Shown here: positions 16,794 through 32,849 of the stretch, in pieces | How positions within the stretch are numbered: position 1 is the stretch's first letter | How the letters are laid out: each line of letters starts with the position of its first letter | DNA from: a virus | Virus record (IMG/VR): IMGVR_UViG_3300025154_002805 | Span: 1-33,061 of that record | Strand: one strand, 5' to 3' | Length of the DNA: 33,061 nucleotides | Notes under the pieces: model-generated | Told to the model about the DNA's origin: nothing | Database searches by the model: none | Seen by the model: the letters and a program-made list of their open reading frames with translations, nothing else | Made by a program: the position numbers and the translations under genes

Positions 16794-17288
16794 TTATCTC
16801 CCCTTGTATGCCTGCGCGCCGCCCAATGGCGCATAGATCTCGTTCATCTCGCTTTCGGTGATCAACCACCCGCGATGGCGTTTCTTTCCCCTCGGGGCTT
16901 CGTCGTCCTCATCCTCATCGATCCCGTCGATCTCAACAGCCATGTCATCCCCGGCCTGTTCACAAGCCTCCGGAGCATCAGCGGAAGGCTGCTGTGCGGC
17001 TGGGCGGGAATGGATGACCGGGATCCGCACCTTGACGAACTTCGGTTCAGATTTTGCGGCTTCCGGTGCAGGCTGGTGCGTTTTCGTCTCGGCCTGGTGT
17101 GCATTTGTTGCAGGCTGGTGCGTTTCCGTCTCACTCTCCGGCTTCCACGCCTCGATGATCTTCAACCCGTCAAGGTCCGTCCCCAGGCAATTGGCGATGT
17201 GGCGGCGGCATTGCCCGGCCCGCAGTGCAACCCCGATAAAGTGCTGCTGGCTGGATTTCGACATCTTGTTGACGAAGGTGGCTTTCAT
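16794..17288 (-). CDS. Acidic hypothetical protein with a short internal repeat
   Basis: A 164-residue protein; ATG 17288 overlaps the preceding stop as ATGA, which is why the longer upstream extension is rejected. A basic N-terminal segment (ALRAGQCRRHIANCLGTDL) is followed by a repeated ETxTHQPA motif (DNA repeat near 17078-17100 and 17109-17132), then a very acidic run (EIDGIDEDEDDEAPRGKK) and a C-terminus RGWLITESEMNEIYAPLGG. Function unknown; the gene lies between replication and late-control genes. Confidence 0.6.
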   Translation of the reverse strand: MKATFVNKMSKSSQQHFIGVALRAGQCRRHIANCLGTDLDGLKIIEAWKPESETETHQPATNAHQAETKTHQPAPEAAKSEPKFVKVRIPVIHSRPAAQQPSADAPEACEQAGDDMAVEIDGIDEDEDDEAPRGKKRHRGWLITESEMNEIYAPLGGAQAYKGR

Positions 17289-17803
17289 CTGGAAAATTTC
17301 TCCCAGCTGTCGATGATTTCCACGATCGCTCGAAGCTGTGAGCGCATGGCATAAGTCGCCTCGTCCAGCTTTTCCTTCAGCTCTGCGAGCAGCGGGAAGA
17401 AGCGGTTGGCGCGCGGCCATTCGGTCAGCACATTCCGCACAGCCTCCCCGGGCCACGCCTGGAGCTCATCAGCCAGCGCCGCAAAGCGCAGCTTGTTTTC
17501 ATCGGGTGAGGAATCCTTGGGCGGCAGGGTGAGGTAATGCACCCGCACCAGCCACGAAATGATGGTCCGGCCATCTGCGGGCGGGTTCATGGCGCGCACC
17601 GCGGCGATGTATTCCCGCCCGGCGGCTATTTCAACCGGAGACACAGGCTGGCAGAGAATTGCATCCCGCCTGGCTTTGTAGGTTCCGTAATCCAGCCCGC
17701 TGGCAATTTCCTTCAGGCATTTCAGCGATGAGCTCAGCAAAGGCGTCGGCTGAGGTCCGACGGCCACGACGGCTTCCCCCCGCGCTGCCGCCGCCATGCC
17801 CAC
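17285..17803 (-). CDS. Replication-region protein in the lambda P position
   Basis: A 172-residue protein if started at GTG 17803 (GAGG 6 nt upstream); ATG 17797 is the other choice. The frame is open further upstream but there it lies within the initiator gene. It has CLKEIASGLDYGTYKARRD, then HYLTLPPKDSSPDENKLRFA and a helix with WPGEAVRNVLTEWPRANRFF, ending in PLLAELKEKLDEA, a pattern I have seen in alphaproteobacterial phage proteins without defined function. It follows the O-like initiator, so a helicase-loading or replication accessory role is plausible. It overlaps the initiator gene by about 170 bases in a different frame. Confidence 0.6.
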   Translation of the reverse strand: MGMAAAARGEAVVAVGPQPTPLLSSSLKCLKEIASGLDYGTYKARRDAILCQPVSPVEIAAGREYIAAVRAMNPPADGRTIISWLVRVHYLTLPPKDSSPDENKLRFAALADELQAWPGEAVRNVLTEWPRANRFFPLLAELKEKLDEATYAMRSQLRAIVEIIDSWEKFSR

Positions 17804-18500
17804 CGACAACCTCGCGTCGGATCCAGTTGCGCCATGTGGCTGGCCAGTCGAGCTTGGTGCCGTCGATGCCGGGCTTGGCGAGCCAGTAATCCCGGAAGCG
17901 GTCCGCGATTGCGGGAATGTCCTGAGGTTCGATGCCTGCGGATGTTGCAAATTCGATGTCGTCATCGGTTGGGTTCCAGTCTGGTGAGATGCGGGTGGCT
18001 GTCGTGGCATGCAAGCGTTTCGGTTTTTTGTTTTCAGGTGGCCCACCATCATCGCCATTTTCATGCGCGCGCACTCTCTGACGGTTAAGTGATGGTTTAC
18101 TTAAAGGTTCAGTGACGGTTATGGGTGCAGATTCTGCGGGGGTGGGGTGCAAAATCTGCGGGGGTGGTGGTGCAAAATCTGCGGGGGTGGGTGCATTTTT
18201 TGCGGGGTGCAAAATCTGCGGGGGTGCATTTTCTGCGGGGGTGCAAAATCTGCGGGGGTTGATCCGGTAGAGCGTGCTCCGCCCGCGCCGGATATCCCGC
18301 ACCACCATTCCGGCCTGCTCAAGATCGGCCAGGTGCCCCTGCACGGCGCGCTCACACATGCTGCACTTGCCGGCAATCCGCTGGATGGAGGGGTAACATT
18401 CCCCTTGGTCGTTGGCATTGTCGCACAAAGCCAGCAAAACGAACTTCCGGCCTGTAGGCATGTCAGTCTTCCAGGCTTCTGTCATCAAGGCGATGCTCAT
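17631..18500 (-). CDS. O-like replication initiator with an internal origin
   Basis: A 289-residue protein. Residues 1-85 are a winged helix of the HTH_36 type (GRKFVLLALCDNANDQGECY, then QRIAGKCSMCERAVQGHL and RRGRSTLYRINPRRF). Residues about 85-135 are a Pro-rich linker encoded by seven DNA repeats. The C-terminal part, SPDWNPTDDDIEFA followed by FRDYWLAKPG and DWPATWRNWIRRE, is a common tail of phage replisome-organising proteins that contact the helicase system. ATG 18500 overlaps the antirepressor stop (ATGA). In lambda the O gene has the same arrangement: N-terminal DNA-binding domain, iterons in the linker, C-terminal partner-binding domain. Confidence 0.8.
   Translation of the reverse strand: MSIALMTEAWKTDMPTGRKFVLLALCDNANDQGECYPSIQRIAGKCSMCERAVQGHLADLEQAGMVVRDIRRGRSTLYRINPRRFCTPAENAPPQILHPAKNAPTPADFAPPPPQILHPTPAESAPITVTEPLSKPSLNRQRVRAHENGDDGGPPENKKPKRLHATTATRISPDWNPTDDDIEFATSAGIEPQDIPAIADRFRDYWLAKPGIDGTKLDWPATWRNWIRREVVGGHGGGSAGGSRRGRRTSADAFAELIAEMPEGNCQRAGLRNLQSQAGCNSLPACVSG
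18125..18258. repeat. Seven iteron-like repeats, candidate origin of replication
   Basis: Seven copies of GTGCAAAATCTGCGGGGG (some with GATT or TTTT in the centre) start at 18125, 18147, 18170, 18191, 18207, 18224 and 18241. Spacings are 22, 23, 21, 16, 17 and 17. Most are not multiples of three, so the same DNA is read in all three frames as PQILHP, ADFAP and RRFCTP: the DNA, not the protein, is what repeats. An AT-richer stretch lies beside it at about 18015-18120, possibly the unwinding region. Confidence 0.7.
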
Positions 18501-19222
18501 GCGGCCCTCCTTGATGAAATGTCCGATGGCTTGACACCAAGCAGTCGCGCCATGCTTGCGATGATGGAAACGCGGATATCCACTCGGGGCTTGTCCGGCG
18601 GAAGAATAACGATGGAACCGGCGCGCCGCCTGTTTTCATCTTCGATCAGCCAGCCGTATTGGGTGGCAAGGTTCATGCCCTGCACGAATTCGACGGCGGC
18701 AGGAAAGCCCGCGTCCGGGATGTCGTGGTAGGTTGTCACCGCGAAGCGGGCCTTGAGGTCGTTCCATGCGTTCGCATAGGCTGTCCCGCGCAGGTGCTGT
18801 GGCAGCCGTGAAACCTGCGACCAGAGAACTTTGCGTAGCTGTTCCCGGTGCACTTGGGAAAGGCGGTGCGGCGGAAGCGCTTGACGGGTTGTTCCCTCGA
18901 GTACGTCCAGTACCCAGCGCCTGAATGCCTTTGCCTTTGGCGTCCTGCTGAACATGGCGATCAGGTGGCAGCCGCGCGGGCTGAAAATCCGCTTGTTCGT
19001 CCTCAGGTTTCCCGAGCCCCCCGAAACGGGGGCCTCGATGACTTCCGCCATATCCTGCGTGAATTCATCCCTGTGGCTCGTGAAGATGCGGCTCACCTTG
19101 TCCTCGCGCTCATAACCAAGGGCGCGGGCGATGTCGGCAGCGGTCAGCCAAGGGATGCCGTTATTATCGATGATCGACAGCCGCATTCCCTCAAATTCGA
19201 CGATGGCCGGCAGATTATTCAT
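18497..19222 (-). CDS. BRO-N / P22AR-C type phage antirepressor
   Basis: A 241-residue protein. Residues 1-120 are a BRO N-terminal domain: VEFEGMRLSIIDNNGIPWLT, then ARALGYEREDKVSRIF, and NKRIFSPRGCHLIAMFSRTP ending FRRWVLDVLEG. Residues about 125-235 match the P22 antirepressor C-terminal domain type (SQVHREQLRKVLWSQVSRLP, TYHDIPDAGFPAAVEFVQGM). Such proteins inactivate phage repressors or act as regulators. It lies in the early operon between the methylase and the initiator, with ATGA coupling to the initiator gene. Confidence 0.85.
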   Translation of the reverse strand: MNNLPAIVEFEGMRLSIIDNNGIPWLTAADIARALGYEREDKVSRIFTSHRDEFTQDMAEVIEAPVSGGSGNLRTNKRIFSPRGCHLIAMFSRTPKAKAFRRWVLDVLEGTTRQALPPHRLSQVHREQLRKVLWSQVSRLPQHLRGTAYANAWNDLKARFAVTTYHDIPDAGFPAAVEFVQGMNLATQYGWLIEDENRRRAGSIVILPPDKPRVDIRVSIIASMARLLGVKPSDISSRRAA

Positions 19223-19815
19223 GATTCCCTCCTCTCATTCACCATTCCGGCGTTTTTCGGGCGCCCGATTGGTTTGAAAACAGTGTTCCAGTTCGGGATG
19301 TCTCCCCGCCATACAACCCACATCACATCCATGGTGGGAGCGCCGCGATCCAGAAAATCCGGCCGCCAGGTCAGGGGATAAATCGTGTGAGGCCTCCACT
19401 CGTTGAACAGGGAAAGCCGCGACTTCGCGTTCCAGAACTGCGATTTCAGCAGGAGCGCGAGGTATGAAACGCCCAGCCTCCGGGCGTGGAGAATAAAATC
19501 CTCTGCAATGCGAAACGGTGGGTTGGTGACGATGGCCGTGCACGGGGCCTCCTGCGTCTTGAGAAAGTCGGCGGTGGTGCCATACCCGTAATCGCGCAGG
19601 TCGGAGGAGATGACACGGAACCCTTCATGCTCCATGACCTTCGATATGGCCCCGCTCCCGCAGGCCGGTTCCCAGATGGCGGGCTGGGCGGCCAGCGCCA
19701 CCCGCTCCTCGGCGATCAGGGCCCGGGTAACATCGGCGGGCGTCGGGTAGAAATCATCCGCCTGCCTGCCCTGCGGCTGCAGGCCACCGCACATCATTTG
19801 CCCGAGCCCGGCCAT
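19219..19815 (-). CDS. N6-adenine DNA methyltransferase-like protein
   Basis: A 198-residue protein. The FYPTPADVTRAL start is followed by the SAM-binding motif WEPACGSGAI at residues 48-57 and the catalytic NPPF at 98-101, the combination of amino-methyltransferases acting on adenine. TRPs such as TWRPDFLDRGAPTMDVMW in the C-terminal third are typical of small phage methylases. It probably modifies phage DNA, either against host restriction or for regulation. ATG 19815 overlaps the upstream stop by one base (TGATG); a GTG at 19818 is the alternative. Confidence 0.85.
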   Translation of the reverse strand: MAGLGQMMCGGLQPQGRQADDFYPTPADVTRALIAEERVALAAQPAIWEPACGSGAISKVMEHEGFRVISSDLRDYGYGTTADFLKTQEAPCTAIVTNPPFRIAEDFILHARRLGVSYLALLLKSQFWNAKSRLSLFNEWRPHTIYPLTWRPDFLDRGAPTMDVMWVVWRGDIPNWNTVFKPIGRPKNAGMVNERRES

Positions 19816-20093
19816 CACTTCACCTCATCGGGGTAGAAATCATATTCCCCCGTCATGAGAAAGCCCGCGATATGGTTGGCGAGCTGCAGCATGTGGCACG
19901 GGGAAGCTGGCGGGAGATCATCCGGAACTGTCTCCGGTGCGCAAAACTTCGCAGCCACCTGCATGGCGAACCAGCGTATTGCGACTGCATCCCGCGCCGC
20001 CGGGAGACTGATTACGGATAAATCCGGGAAGACGGGTGCGGGGCCAGCGCCCGGATTGAAAAGCGGCTCGAACGGTTTCTGCTGCTCGCTCAT
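19815..20093 (-). CDS. Hypothetical early protein
   Basis: A 92-residue protein; ATG 20093 overlaps the RusA stop as ATGA, so the longer upstream frame is rejected. The C-terminal segment, SPCHMLQLANHIAGFLMTGEYDFYP, is similar in layout to RAKMIADFILTGE in the protein at 21447-21671, pointing to a shared small domain. Function unknown. Confidence 0.7.
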   Translation of the reverse strand: MSEQQKPFEPLFNPGAGPAPVFPDLSVISLPAARDAVAIRWFAMQVAAKFCAPETVPDDLPPASPCHMLQLANHIAGFLMTGEYDFYPDEVK

Positions 20094-31340: not shown

Positions 31341-31525
31341 CAGGGCAAGAAACCATCCACCTGAAGGACGAGGAGCGCCAGCCCTGCGAAATCTGGACGC
31401 GGGTGATGGGATACCACCGCCCGGTGTCAGAGTTCAACATAGGCAAGAAATCAGAGTTCAATGAGCGGGTGCCATTCAAGGCGCCGAAGTTTGAGGATGA
31501 GAACCATGCACGAATTGATTGTTGA
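31337..31525 (+). CDS. NrdD C-terminus-like small protein
   Basis: A 62-residue protein; ATG 31337 overlaps the preceding stop. CEIWTRVMGYHRPVSEFNIG followed by KKSEFNERVPFK resembles the end of anaerobic ribonucleotide reductases and small phage proteins annotated after them. The catalytic barrel is absent, so it cannot be an enzyme on its own. It overlaps the start of the methyltransferase by 20 bases. Confidence 0.6.
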   Translation: MTGQETIHLKDEERQPCEIWTRVMGYHRPVSEFNIGKKSEFNERVPFKAPKFEDENHARIDC

Positions 31526-32849
31526 TAATTTCGCTGGCGGTGGCGGTGCGAGCACCGGGATTGAAATAGCCCTCGGGCGCCCGGTGGACATCGCCATCAA
31601 CCACGACCCGGAAGCTATCGCCATGCACGCGGCCAACCACCCCGGCACGCAGCACCATTGCGAAAGCGTATGGAAGGTGAAGCCGCGCGACCTGTGCGAC
31701 GGCCAGCCCGTCGGGTTGATGTGGCTCTCGCCGGACTGCAAGCATTTCAGCAAGGCCAAGGGCGGCAAGCCACGCGACAAGAACATCCGTGGCCTCGCCT
31801 GGGTTGCGCTGCGGTGGGCGGCAACCGTCCGCCCGCGGATCATCATGCTGGAAAATGTCGAGGAGTTCATCACCTGGGGCCCCGTAGATGGCGAAGGCAA
31901 CCCCATCAAGAAGCTCTCCGGCCATACCTTCGGCAGCTATGTGCGTGCCCTTGAAAGCCACGGCTACAAGGTGGAGTGGCGCGAGCTGCGGGCCTGTGAC
32001 TATGGCGCACCCACCATCCGCAAGCGCCTGTTCCTGATTGCCCGCTGTGACGGCCAGCGCATTGCCTGGCCGGAACCGACACATGGAACCGGACGGGAGC
32101 CATACAGGACGGCGGCCGAGTGCATCGACTGGTCAATTCCGTGCCCGTCGATCTTCGACCGGCGCCAGCCCCTCGCGGAGGCCACCTGCCGCCGCATCGC
32201 CAAGGGTATCATGCGCTATGTCGTGAACGCGCCAGCGCCGTTCATTGCCCCCGTCATCGGCGGGCAACCTGCGGGGCATGGGGAAAATGTCGCCGCGTTC
32301 CTTACAAAGCACTATGGCGGGGTCGTCGGCCAGGCGGTCAACCAGCCCGTCGGCACGGTGACCAGCATTGACCACCATTCCCTCGTGGCATCTACCATTG
32401 TCAAGATGCGCGGGCAGAATGTGGGTCAGCCGGTTTATGAGCCCCTGCACACCATCAGCGCAGGCGGCACCCACCACGCCGAGGTGCTGGCCTTCATGGT
32501 CAAATATTATGGAACCGACCAAGACCCGAAGATGCTCGAACCGCTGCACACGATCACTTCAAAAGATCGCTTCGGCCTCGTCACCGTAAACATCCACGGC
32601 GAATCCTACGCCATCGTGGACATTGGCCTGCGGATGCTTTCGCCGCGGGAGCTGTTTCGCGCGCAAGGCTTCCCGGAATCCTACATCATCGAACACGGCG
32701 CCGGGCCAGAAGGCCAGCGCATCAACCTCACAAAATCCGCACAGGTGCGCATGGTAGGCAACAGCGTCAGCCCTCCCCCGGCCGCAGCGCTCGTGCGGGA
32801 GAATTTCCAGATAGCCAGCGCCCTGGCAGAAAAGGCAGACGCAGCATGA
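31506..32849 (+). CDS. C5-cytosine DNA methyltransferase
   Basis: A 447-residue protein from ATG 31506. Motif I is DNFAGGGGASTGIEIAL; the catalytic cysteine is Cys78 in LSPDCKHFSKAKGG, a variant of the usual PCQxFS; ENVEEF (116-121) is the ENV motif; RALESHGYKVEWRELRACDY and YGAPTIRKRLFLIA follow. Between residues about 260 and 380 there are three repeats with QPVGTVTS, EPLHTISA and EPLHTITS. The end has LRMLSPRELFRAQGFPE and VGNSVSPP. No partner restriction enzyme is seen, so it is a solitary phage methylase, probably for protection or regulation. Confidence 0.93.
   Translation: MHELIVDNFAGGGGASTGIEIALGRPVDIAINHDPEAIAMHAANHPGTQHHCESVWKVKPRDLCDGQPVGLMWLSPDCKHFSKAKGGKPRDKNIRGLAWVALRWAATVRPRIIMLENVEEFITWGPVDGEGNPIKKLSGHTFGSYVRALESHGYKVEWRELRACDYGAPTIRKRLFLIARCDGQRIAWPEPTHGTGREPYRTAAECIDWSIPCPSIFDRRQPLAEATCRRIAKGIMRYVVNAPAPFIAPVIGGQPAGHGENVAAFLTKHYGGVVGQAVNQPVGTVTSIDHHSLVASTIVKMRGQNVGQPVYEPLHTISAGGTHHAEVLAFMVKYYGTDQDPKMLEPLHTITSKDRFGLVTVNIHGESYAIVDIGLRMLSPRELFRAQGFPESYIIEHGAGPEGQRINLTKSAQVRMVGNSVSPPPAAALVRENFQIASALAEKADAA

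Follow-up and report, generated by a model that had tools for sequence, protein, structure and literature searches.

The window, meaning the whole stretch of DNA analysed here, is a record of 33,061 bases from one virus. Family searches identified genes for a CI-like repressor, terminase, portal and capsid proteins in it, which mark it as a temperate tailed phage. The locus of interest is a replication initiator gene on the minus strand. Along the encoded protein, a winged helix (aa 1–82) is followed by a Pro-rich linker and a DnaT-like domain (aa 170–231). The winged helix contains an HTH_36 match at aa 14–64 (Pfam, 2e-11). The profile PHROG 1032 matches over aa 1–230, covering most of both the profile and the protein (4.6e-30), and PHROG 391 matches with 1.6e-25. 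By these profile matches the gene product belongs to the PHROG 1032 / 391 / 1408 initiation proteins, which combine HTH_36 with a variable C-terminus. The Pfam match of the DnaT domain PF17948 at aa 170–231 is weak (0.0011, under the curated cut-off); the same C-terminal part matches PHROG 3992 and 1408 (primosomal or replication initiation protein). The coordinates of all features are collected in Table 1.

Table 1. Features of the initiator gene and of the candidate origin within it (positions in the window).
Feature	Sequence	Position	Strand	Remarks
Replication initiator gene		17631–18500	−	289 aa; HTH_36 and PHROG 1032 / 391 (replication initiation, O-like)
Winged-helix DNA-binding domain		18255–18500	−	Predicted recognition helix, residues 50–62; AlphaFold2 model
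Iteron 1	CCCCGCAGATTTTGCACC	18240–18257	−	
Iteron 2	CCCCGCAGAAAATGCACC	18223–18240	−	
Iteron 3	CCCCGCAGATTTTGCACC	18206–18223	−	
Iteron 4	CCCCGCAAAAAATGCACC	18190–18207	−	Opens the AT-proximal quartet (spacings 21, 23, 22)
Iteron 5	CCCCGCAGATTTTGCACC	18169–18186	−	
Iteron 6	CCCCGCAGATTTTGCACC	18146–18163	−	
Iteron 7	CCCCGCAGAATCTGCACC	18124–18141	−	3 bp ahead of the second array
Predicted duplex-unwinding element		18079–18134	.	Least stable 50 bp of the gene: 18085–18134
Second array, unit 1	AACCGTCA	18113–18120	−	
Second array, unit 2 (degenerate)	AACCTTTA	18102–18109	−	AACC core preserves the 11, 12, 11 spacing
Second array, unit 3	AACCATCA	18090–18097	−	
Second array, unit 4	AACCGTCA	18079–18086	−	
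GC palindrome, tentative third element	TGCGCGCGCA	18064–18073	.	Beyond the second array
C-terminal DnaT-like domain		17808–17993	−	Candidate helicase-recruiting part; PF17948 and PHROG 3992 / 1408

The winged helix was modelled with AlphaFold2 from an alignment consisting exclusively of the window and fetched-locus sequences (pLDDT 93.8). A PDB sequence search with this domain gave no significant match, and a PDB fold search with the model returned generic winged helices, mostly of transcriptional regulators. The hallmark of iteron-plasmid Rep proteins (TrfA/RepE), two tandem winged-helix domains, is absent from the protein, which has a single N-terminal winged helix and a DnaT-like C-terminus. 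The C-termini vary among relatives (e.g., Phg_2220_C in an Aeromonas phage), which suggests that the part comprising recognition and origin acts as a cassette.

Directly upstream, a BRO-N / ORF6C antirepressor-like gene (18497–19222, minus strand) overlaps the initiator start by four bases (ATGA); phage LESphi3 has the same antirepressor–initiator gene order. The initiator shares its 3′ half with a long ORF in a different frame (17285–18064, minus strand), for which neither Pfam nor PHROG gave a match. No helicase-loader partner, such as the P-type loader expected next to a gene of the lambda O family, was found downstream by family search; the real downstream gene probably starts within the long ORF, overlapping the initiator end. 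The phage also has two DNA methyltransferase-type ORFs, at 31461–32849 (plus strand) and 19219–19818 (minus strand), matching PHROG 116 and 799.

Seven 18-bp iterons with the coding-strand consensus CCCCGCA-N5-TGCACC occupy positions 18124–18257, in the linker between the winged-helix and DnaT-like domains, and none departs from the consensus at any of its 13 fixed columns. The preliminary description had placed seven iterons within the initiator gene at 18125–18258, spaced 16–23 bp apart, mostly not in multiples of three, and translated in three frames within the Pro-rich linker; every one of them was recovered. In coding order the spacings are 17, 17, 16, 21, 23 and 22, and the iteron start phases are 0,2,1,2,2,1,2. 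Since 21 is the only spacing divisible by three, the iterons use all three frames. Codon shuffles preserving the protein produced a mean of 0.063 exact iterons (maximum 2), and none of 2000 reached seven. When up to two mismatches were allowed, 3 of 2000 codon shuffles contained seven copies, a consequence of the constraint that the repeated peptides place on the DNA; hence, the exact-copy test is the one to trust. Mononucleotide shuffles gave at most one copy at the same looser level. These tests rule out a chance origin of the repeats. The step from frame-shifting repeats to selection on the DNA, taken earlier from this one genome, holds in its conclusion, but a single array is not accepted as sole proof, since recent tandem duplication can also yield repeats that shift frame; it is the comparison across phages that demonstrates selection.

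The same iteron occurs in the initiator linker of Pseudomonas, Aeromonas and Sphingopyxis phages and of many uncultured viruses. Spacings among initiators are bimodal, at 16/17 and 21–23, and the commonest full arrangement is 17,17,22,23,22, in which a quartet with steps of about 22 bp lies on the AT-rich side and the tightly packed copies lie farther off. Local duplication clearly adds or removes copies among homologues. Relatives without the iteron of the window mostly have another palindromic iteron at the same site (TGACACATTGTCA, TGCCAATTTGGCA, TGAACGTGGTTCA, TGGCACCTGTGCCA and others). Across relatives the half-sites are GCA, GAA, GAC and GCC, while the palindromic form and the site are unchanged. 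Judging from these comparisons, the iteron array is an old feature that has been conserved. Conservation of columns by codon position was kept out of the main argument because part of that set had been fetched with iteron patterns; the main counts are from protein-found loci. A Massilia violaceinigra plasmid of 87 kb (L332 / NZ_CP024609) carries this initiator together with degenerate copies of both the iterons and the second array described below, and no other replication initiator (Rep) is annotated on it. This replicon looks like a phage-plasmid, with genes for an N4-gp56 family capsid protein, a tail fibre, ParAB and integrases.

The variation in iteron sequence was compared with that of the protein. 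The half-site and the flank base were scored against each of the 82 winged-helix columns in 70 non-redundant genes; this set comprised all loci, and residue identity was never used as a search criterion. Column 50 (E50 in the window) accounts best for the half-site, followed by its neighbours 55 and 49. Genes with a GCA or GCC half-site carry E at column 50 in 53 of 58 cases and those with GAA carry D in 8 of 9, while GAC goes with T or A. For the flank base, column 54 (Q54 in the window) has the most explanatory power: Q accompanies flank C in 53 of 54 genes, and F, Y or R accompanies flank T or G in 13 of 16. Residues 50 and 54, the top-scoring of the 82 columns, both lie on the recognition helix (50–62) of the model. 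Contrasts between closest relatives display the same residue and half-site switches. In a tree-based covariation test, the supported independent pairs (4 and 5) all changed, on average, in the expected direction; with so few pairs the test is underpowered, and its sign test is not significant alone. Taken with the modelled recognition helix, the covariation is strong, though not decisive, evidence that the encoded winged helix reads the iterons of its own gene.

A second array, of AACCRTCA units at steps of 11–12 bp, usually comes after the last iteron; in the window it occupies 18079–18120. The preliminary description had reported an AT-richer strip at about 18015–18120. That strip is indeed richer in AT than the gene (52% vs. 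40.5%), but its AT-rich core is narrower, 18079–18120, with 59.5% AT, and is really the second-array element of about 42 bp. Neither this array nor the correspondence between half-site and recognition helix had been noticed then. No 8-mer of the region is more widespread among the protein-found genes than AACCATCA, which 55 of the 86 contain. In 74 non-redundant genes there are 131 copies of AACCRTCA, against 13.7 expected from codon shuffles (maximum 23 among 200), and 45 genes have at least two copies (1.1 expected). Neighbouring copies are most often 11 bp (35 cases) or 12 bp (18 cases) apart, with 10 and 13 rarer. Chains of at least three AACC cores at 10–13 bp were found in 38 genes, compared with 5.3 expected (maximum 9). 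The commonest chain pattern is 11,12,11, and all 38 chains use more than one reading frame.

The array starts 3 bp past the last CACC in 22 of 45 genes. It coincides with a peak in AT content (0.60 vs. about 0.40). The 50-bp window of lowest stability begins no more than about 40 bp from the array start in most of the 45. Iterons that differ widely in sequence are followed by the same array. When about 700 bacterial genomes were scanned blind for triple arrays, seven distinct places were hit, three of them in winged-helix phage initiators, and the reversed control gave none. In viral contigs, 68 of 110 array matches fell in winged-helix initiators, and the remainder were mostly initiators cut at the contig end or simple protein repeats; the latter (RNRHRN and similar) were set aside as unrelated. 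Three loci (L434, L473 and L500) have initiator-like ORFs that look unrelated and lack an A1 winged-helix match, yet carry tight arrays of AACCATCA or AACCGTCA with 11-bp steps; the second array may therefore reach into another class of initiators. Lambda-type origins have an inverted repeat past their AT-rich DNA. Among the relatives, an inverted repeat at +40 to +69 was found in 19 of 45 genes (7.9 expected), and the status of the corresponding palindrome TGCGCGCGCA in the window is tentative.

The layout was compared with that of known origins. The preliminary description had likened it to the origin of phage lambda, with four iterons inside the O gene, and the annotated lambda record agrees, giving four with spacings of 20, 24 and 23. 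From the annotated coordinates the lambda iterons start in phases 0,2,2,1, so reading in three frames is not special to the phage studied here. Similar to lambda ori and to the origins of Stx phages 933W/P27 and of phage P22 (gene 18), the candidate origin lies inside the initiator gene, between its two parts. Its palindromic iterons of about 18 bp, read in several frames, stand between the DNA-binding and the putative partner-binding parts, and AT-rich DNA, predicted to melt easily, adjoins them on the 3′ side. The origins of Stx phages have six iterons, of which the four AT-proximal ones bind best (PMC7466680), and the window has a comparable arrangement, with four AT-proximal iterons as a putative core and extra distal copies. 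It differs from the lambda, Stx and P22 origins in iteron sequence, iteron count and the DnaT-like C-terminus, and lambda and P22 lack the AACCRTCA array at 11–12 bp steps. In BLASTP and profile comparisons the winged helix showed no detectable homology to either lambda O or P22 gp18, and there is no Phage_rep_O match; therefore, the locus is said to work like lambda ori, and the protein is not called a member of the lambda O family.

The second array also has counterparts among iteron plasmids. Similar to RK2 oriV with its four 13-mers, all of which are required (PMC4081077), and F oriS with its four 8-mers, the window carries short direct repeats inside an AT-rich element beside the iterons. 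AACCRTCA differs from the plasmid repeats in sequence, in its spacing of 11–12 bp and in its location inside a protein-coding gene, and, unlike them, it is identical across initiators of different iteron specificity. The open-access literature yielded no description of this iteron or array, nor of an origin for the PHROG 1032 / 391 / 1408 family. The candidate origin is of a known kind, with a lambda-like architecture, and its new part is the second array, apparently unreported.

We consider it very probable that 18064–18257 is a theta-type phage origin situated within its own initiator gene, with the layout and the working of lambda ori. According to the proposed mechanism, winged-helix dimers of the encoded protein would bind the seven palindromic iterons, with the AT-proximal quartet (steps of about 22 bp) as the core and the tightly packed 16–17-bp copies as accessory sites. 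The nucleoprotein complex would melt the adjoining AT-rich DNA bearing the four AACCRTCA units, and these would be recognised, as duplex or as melted DNA, probably by the initiator itself. The DnaT-like C-terminal domain would then recruit the host helicase machinery. Since the quartet has steps of about 22 bp and the second array of about 11, the array units may extend a shared register into the melting element. In iteron plasmids, the winged-helix initiators TrfA and RepE remain on the iterons as they bind a single strand of the unwinding element (PMC4081077), and a mechanism of the same kind is envisaged here.

The candidate origin is well supported, if not proven, by several lines of comparison: the initiator family (PHROG 1032 and 391), the same iteron layout in related linkers, the correlated variation of half-sites with the recognition helix, the position of the iterons next to the gene's least stable DNA, and the Massilia phage-plasmid with its initiator and degenerate arrays. 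The GC-skew minimum, at 17813 in the window, is near the iterons there and likewise in one Aeromonas phage, but about 10 kb off in LESphi3.

Among the alternatives, the one deserving most weight, although we hold it to be rather unlikely, is a variant that differs only in the reader of the second array, which would lie in the origin but be bound by a host replication or architectural protein. The constancy of the array while iterons and recognition helix change would suit such a reader. However, AACCRTCA matches neither the DnaA box nor the IHF consensus, and the array is found in phages of distant hosts, including Actinomycetota-type genomes.

It is improbable that the iterons function as operators, through which the initiator is autoregulated or replication is controlled (handcuffing), with the true origin elsewhere. 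Plasmid iterons can play both roles, and the regulators that prevail among the fold neighbours of the winged helix fit an operator; yet in dozens of phages the iterons lie in the middle of the gene, a long way from a promoter, where both the least stable DNA and a second phased array adjoin them, and a second iteron cluster, sought across the 33-kb record, was not found. There is similarly little likelihood that the second array acts on RNA outside the origin, as a Rho utilisation site (YC dimers every 11–12 nt) or an antitermination site. Its coding strand is C-containing, G-poor and regularly spaced, as such a site would be, but the array keeps to the last iteron, from which it is mostly just a few bp away, and is specific to initiator genes, and Rho sites are not known to have a fixed 8-mer. 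Finally, selection for a flexible Pro-rich linker, with DNA likeness as a by-product of tandem duplication, could draw on the Pro-rich linkers of many homologues and on the local gain and loss of copies, but is very improbable in view of the frame changes, with copies encoding different peptides (PRRFCT, PQILHP, TPAESAP) and the second array in several frames, and of the codon shuffles; the tracking of half-sites with the recognition helix also speaks against it.

Returning to the lambda-like origin, the array stays fixed while iterons and recognition helix diversify together, and would thus be a common melting or loading signal. We see about an even chance that AACCRTCA, repeated roughly once per helical turn, represents a second element, independent of specificity and not described before, in a large class of phage origins. 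If so, its reader would be either a conserved initiator part or a common partner. With a constant array beside changing iterons, the question of what marks strand opening as origin recognition diversifies becomes directly testable. The correlations of residue 50 with the half-site and of residue 54 with the flank likewise constitute a testable recognition code, which would help to predict whether prophages and phage-plasmids are incompatible. The position of the origin, the specificity of its iterons and the melting element would be predictable from sequence alone in many uncultured temperate phages.
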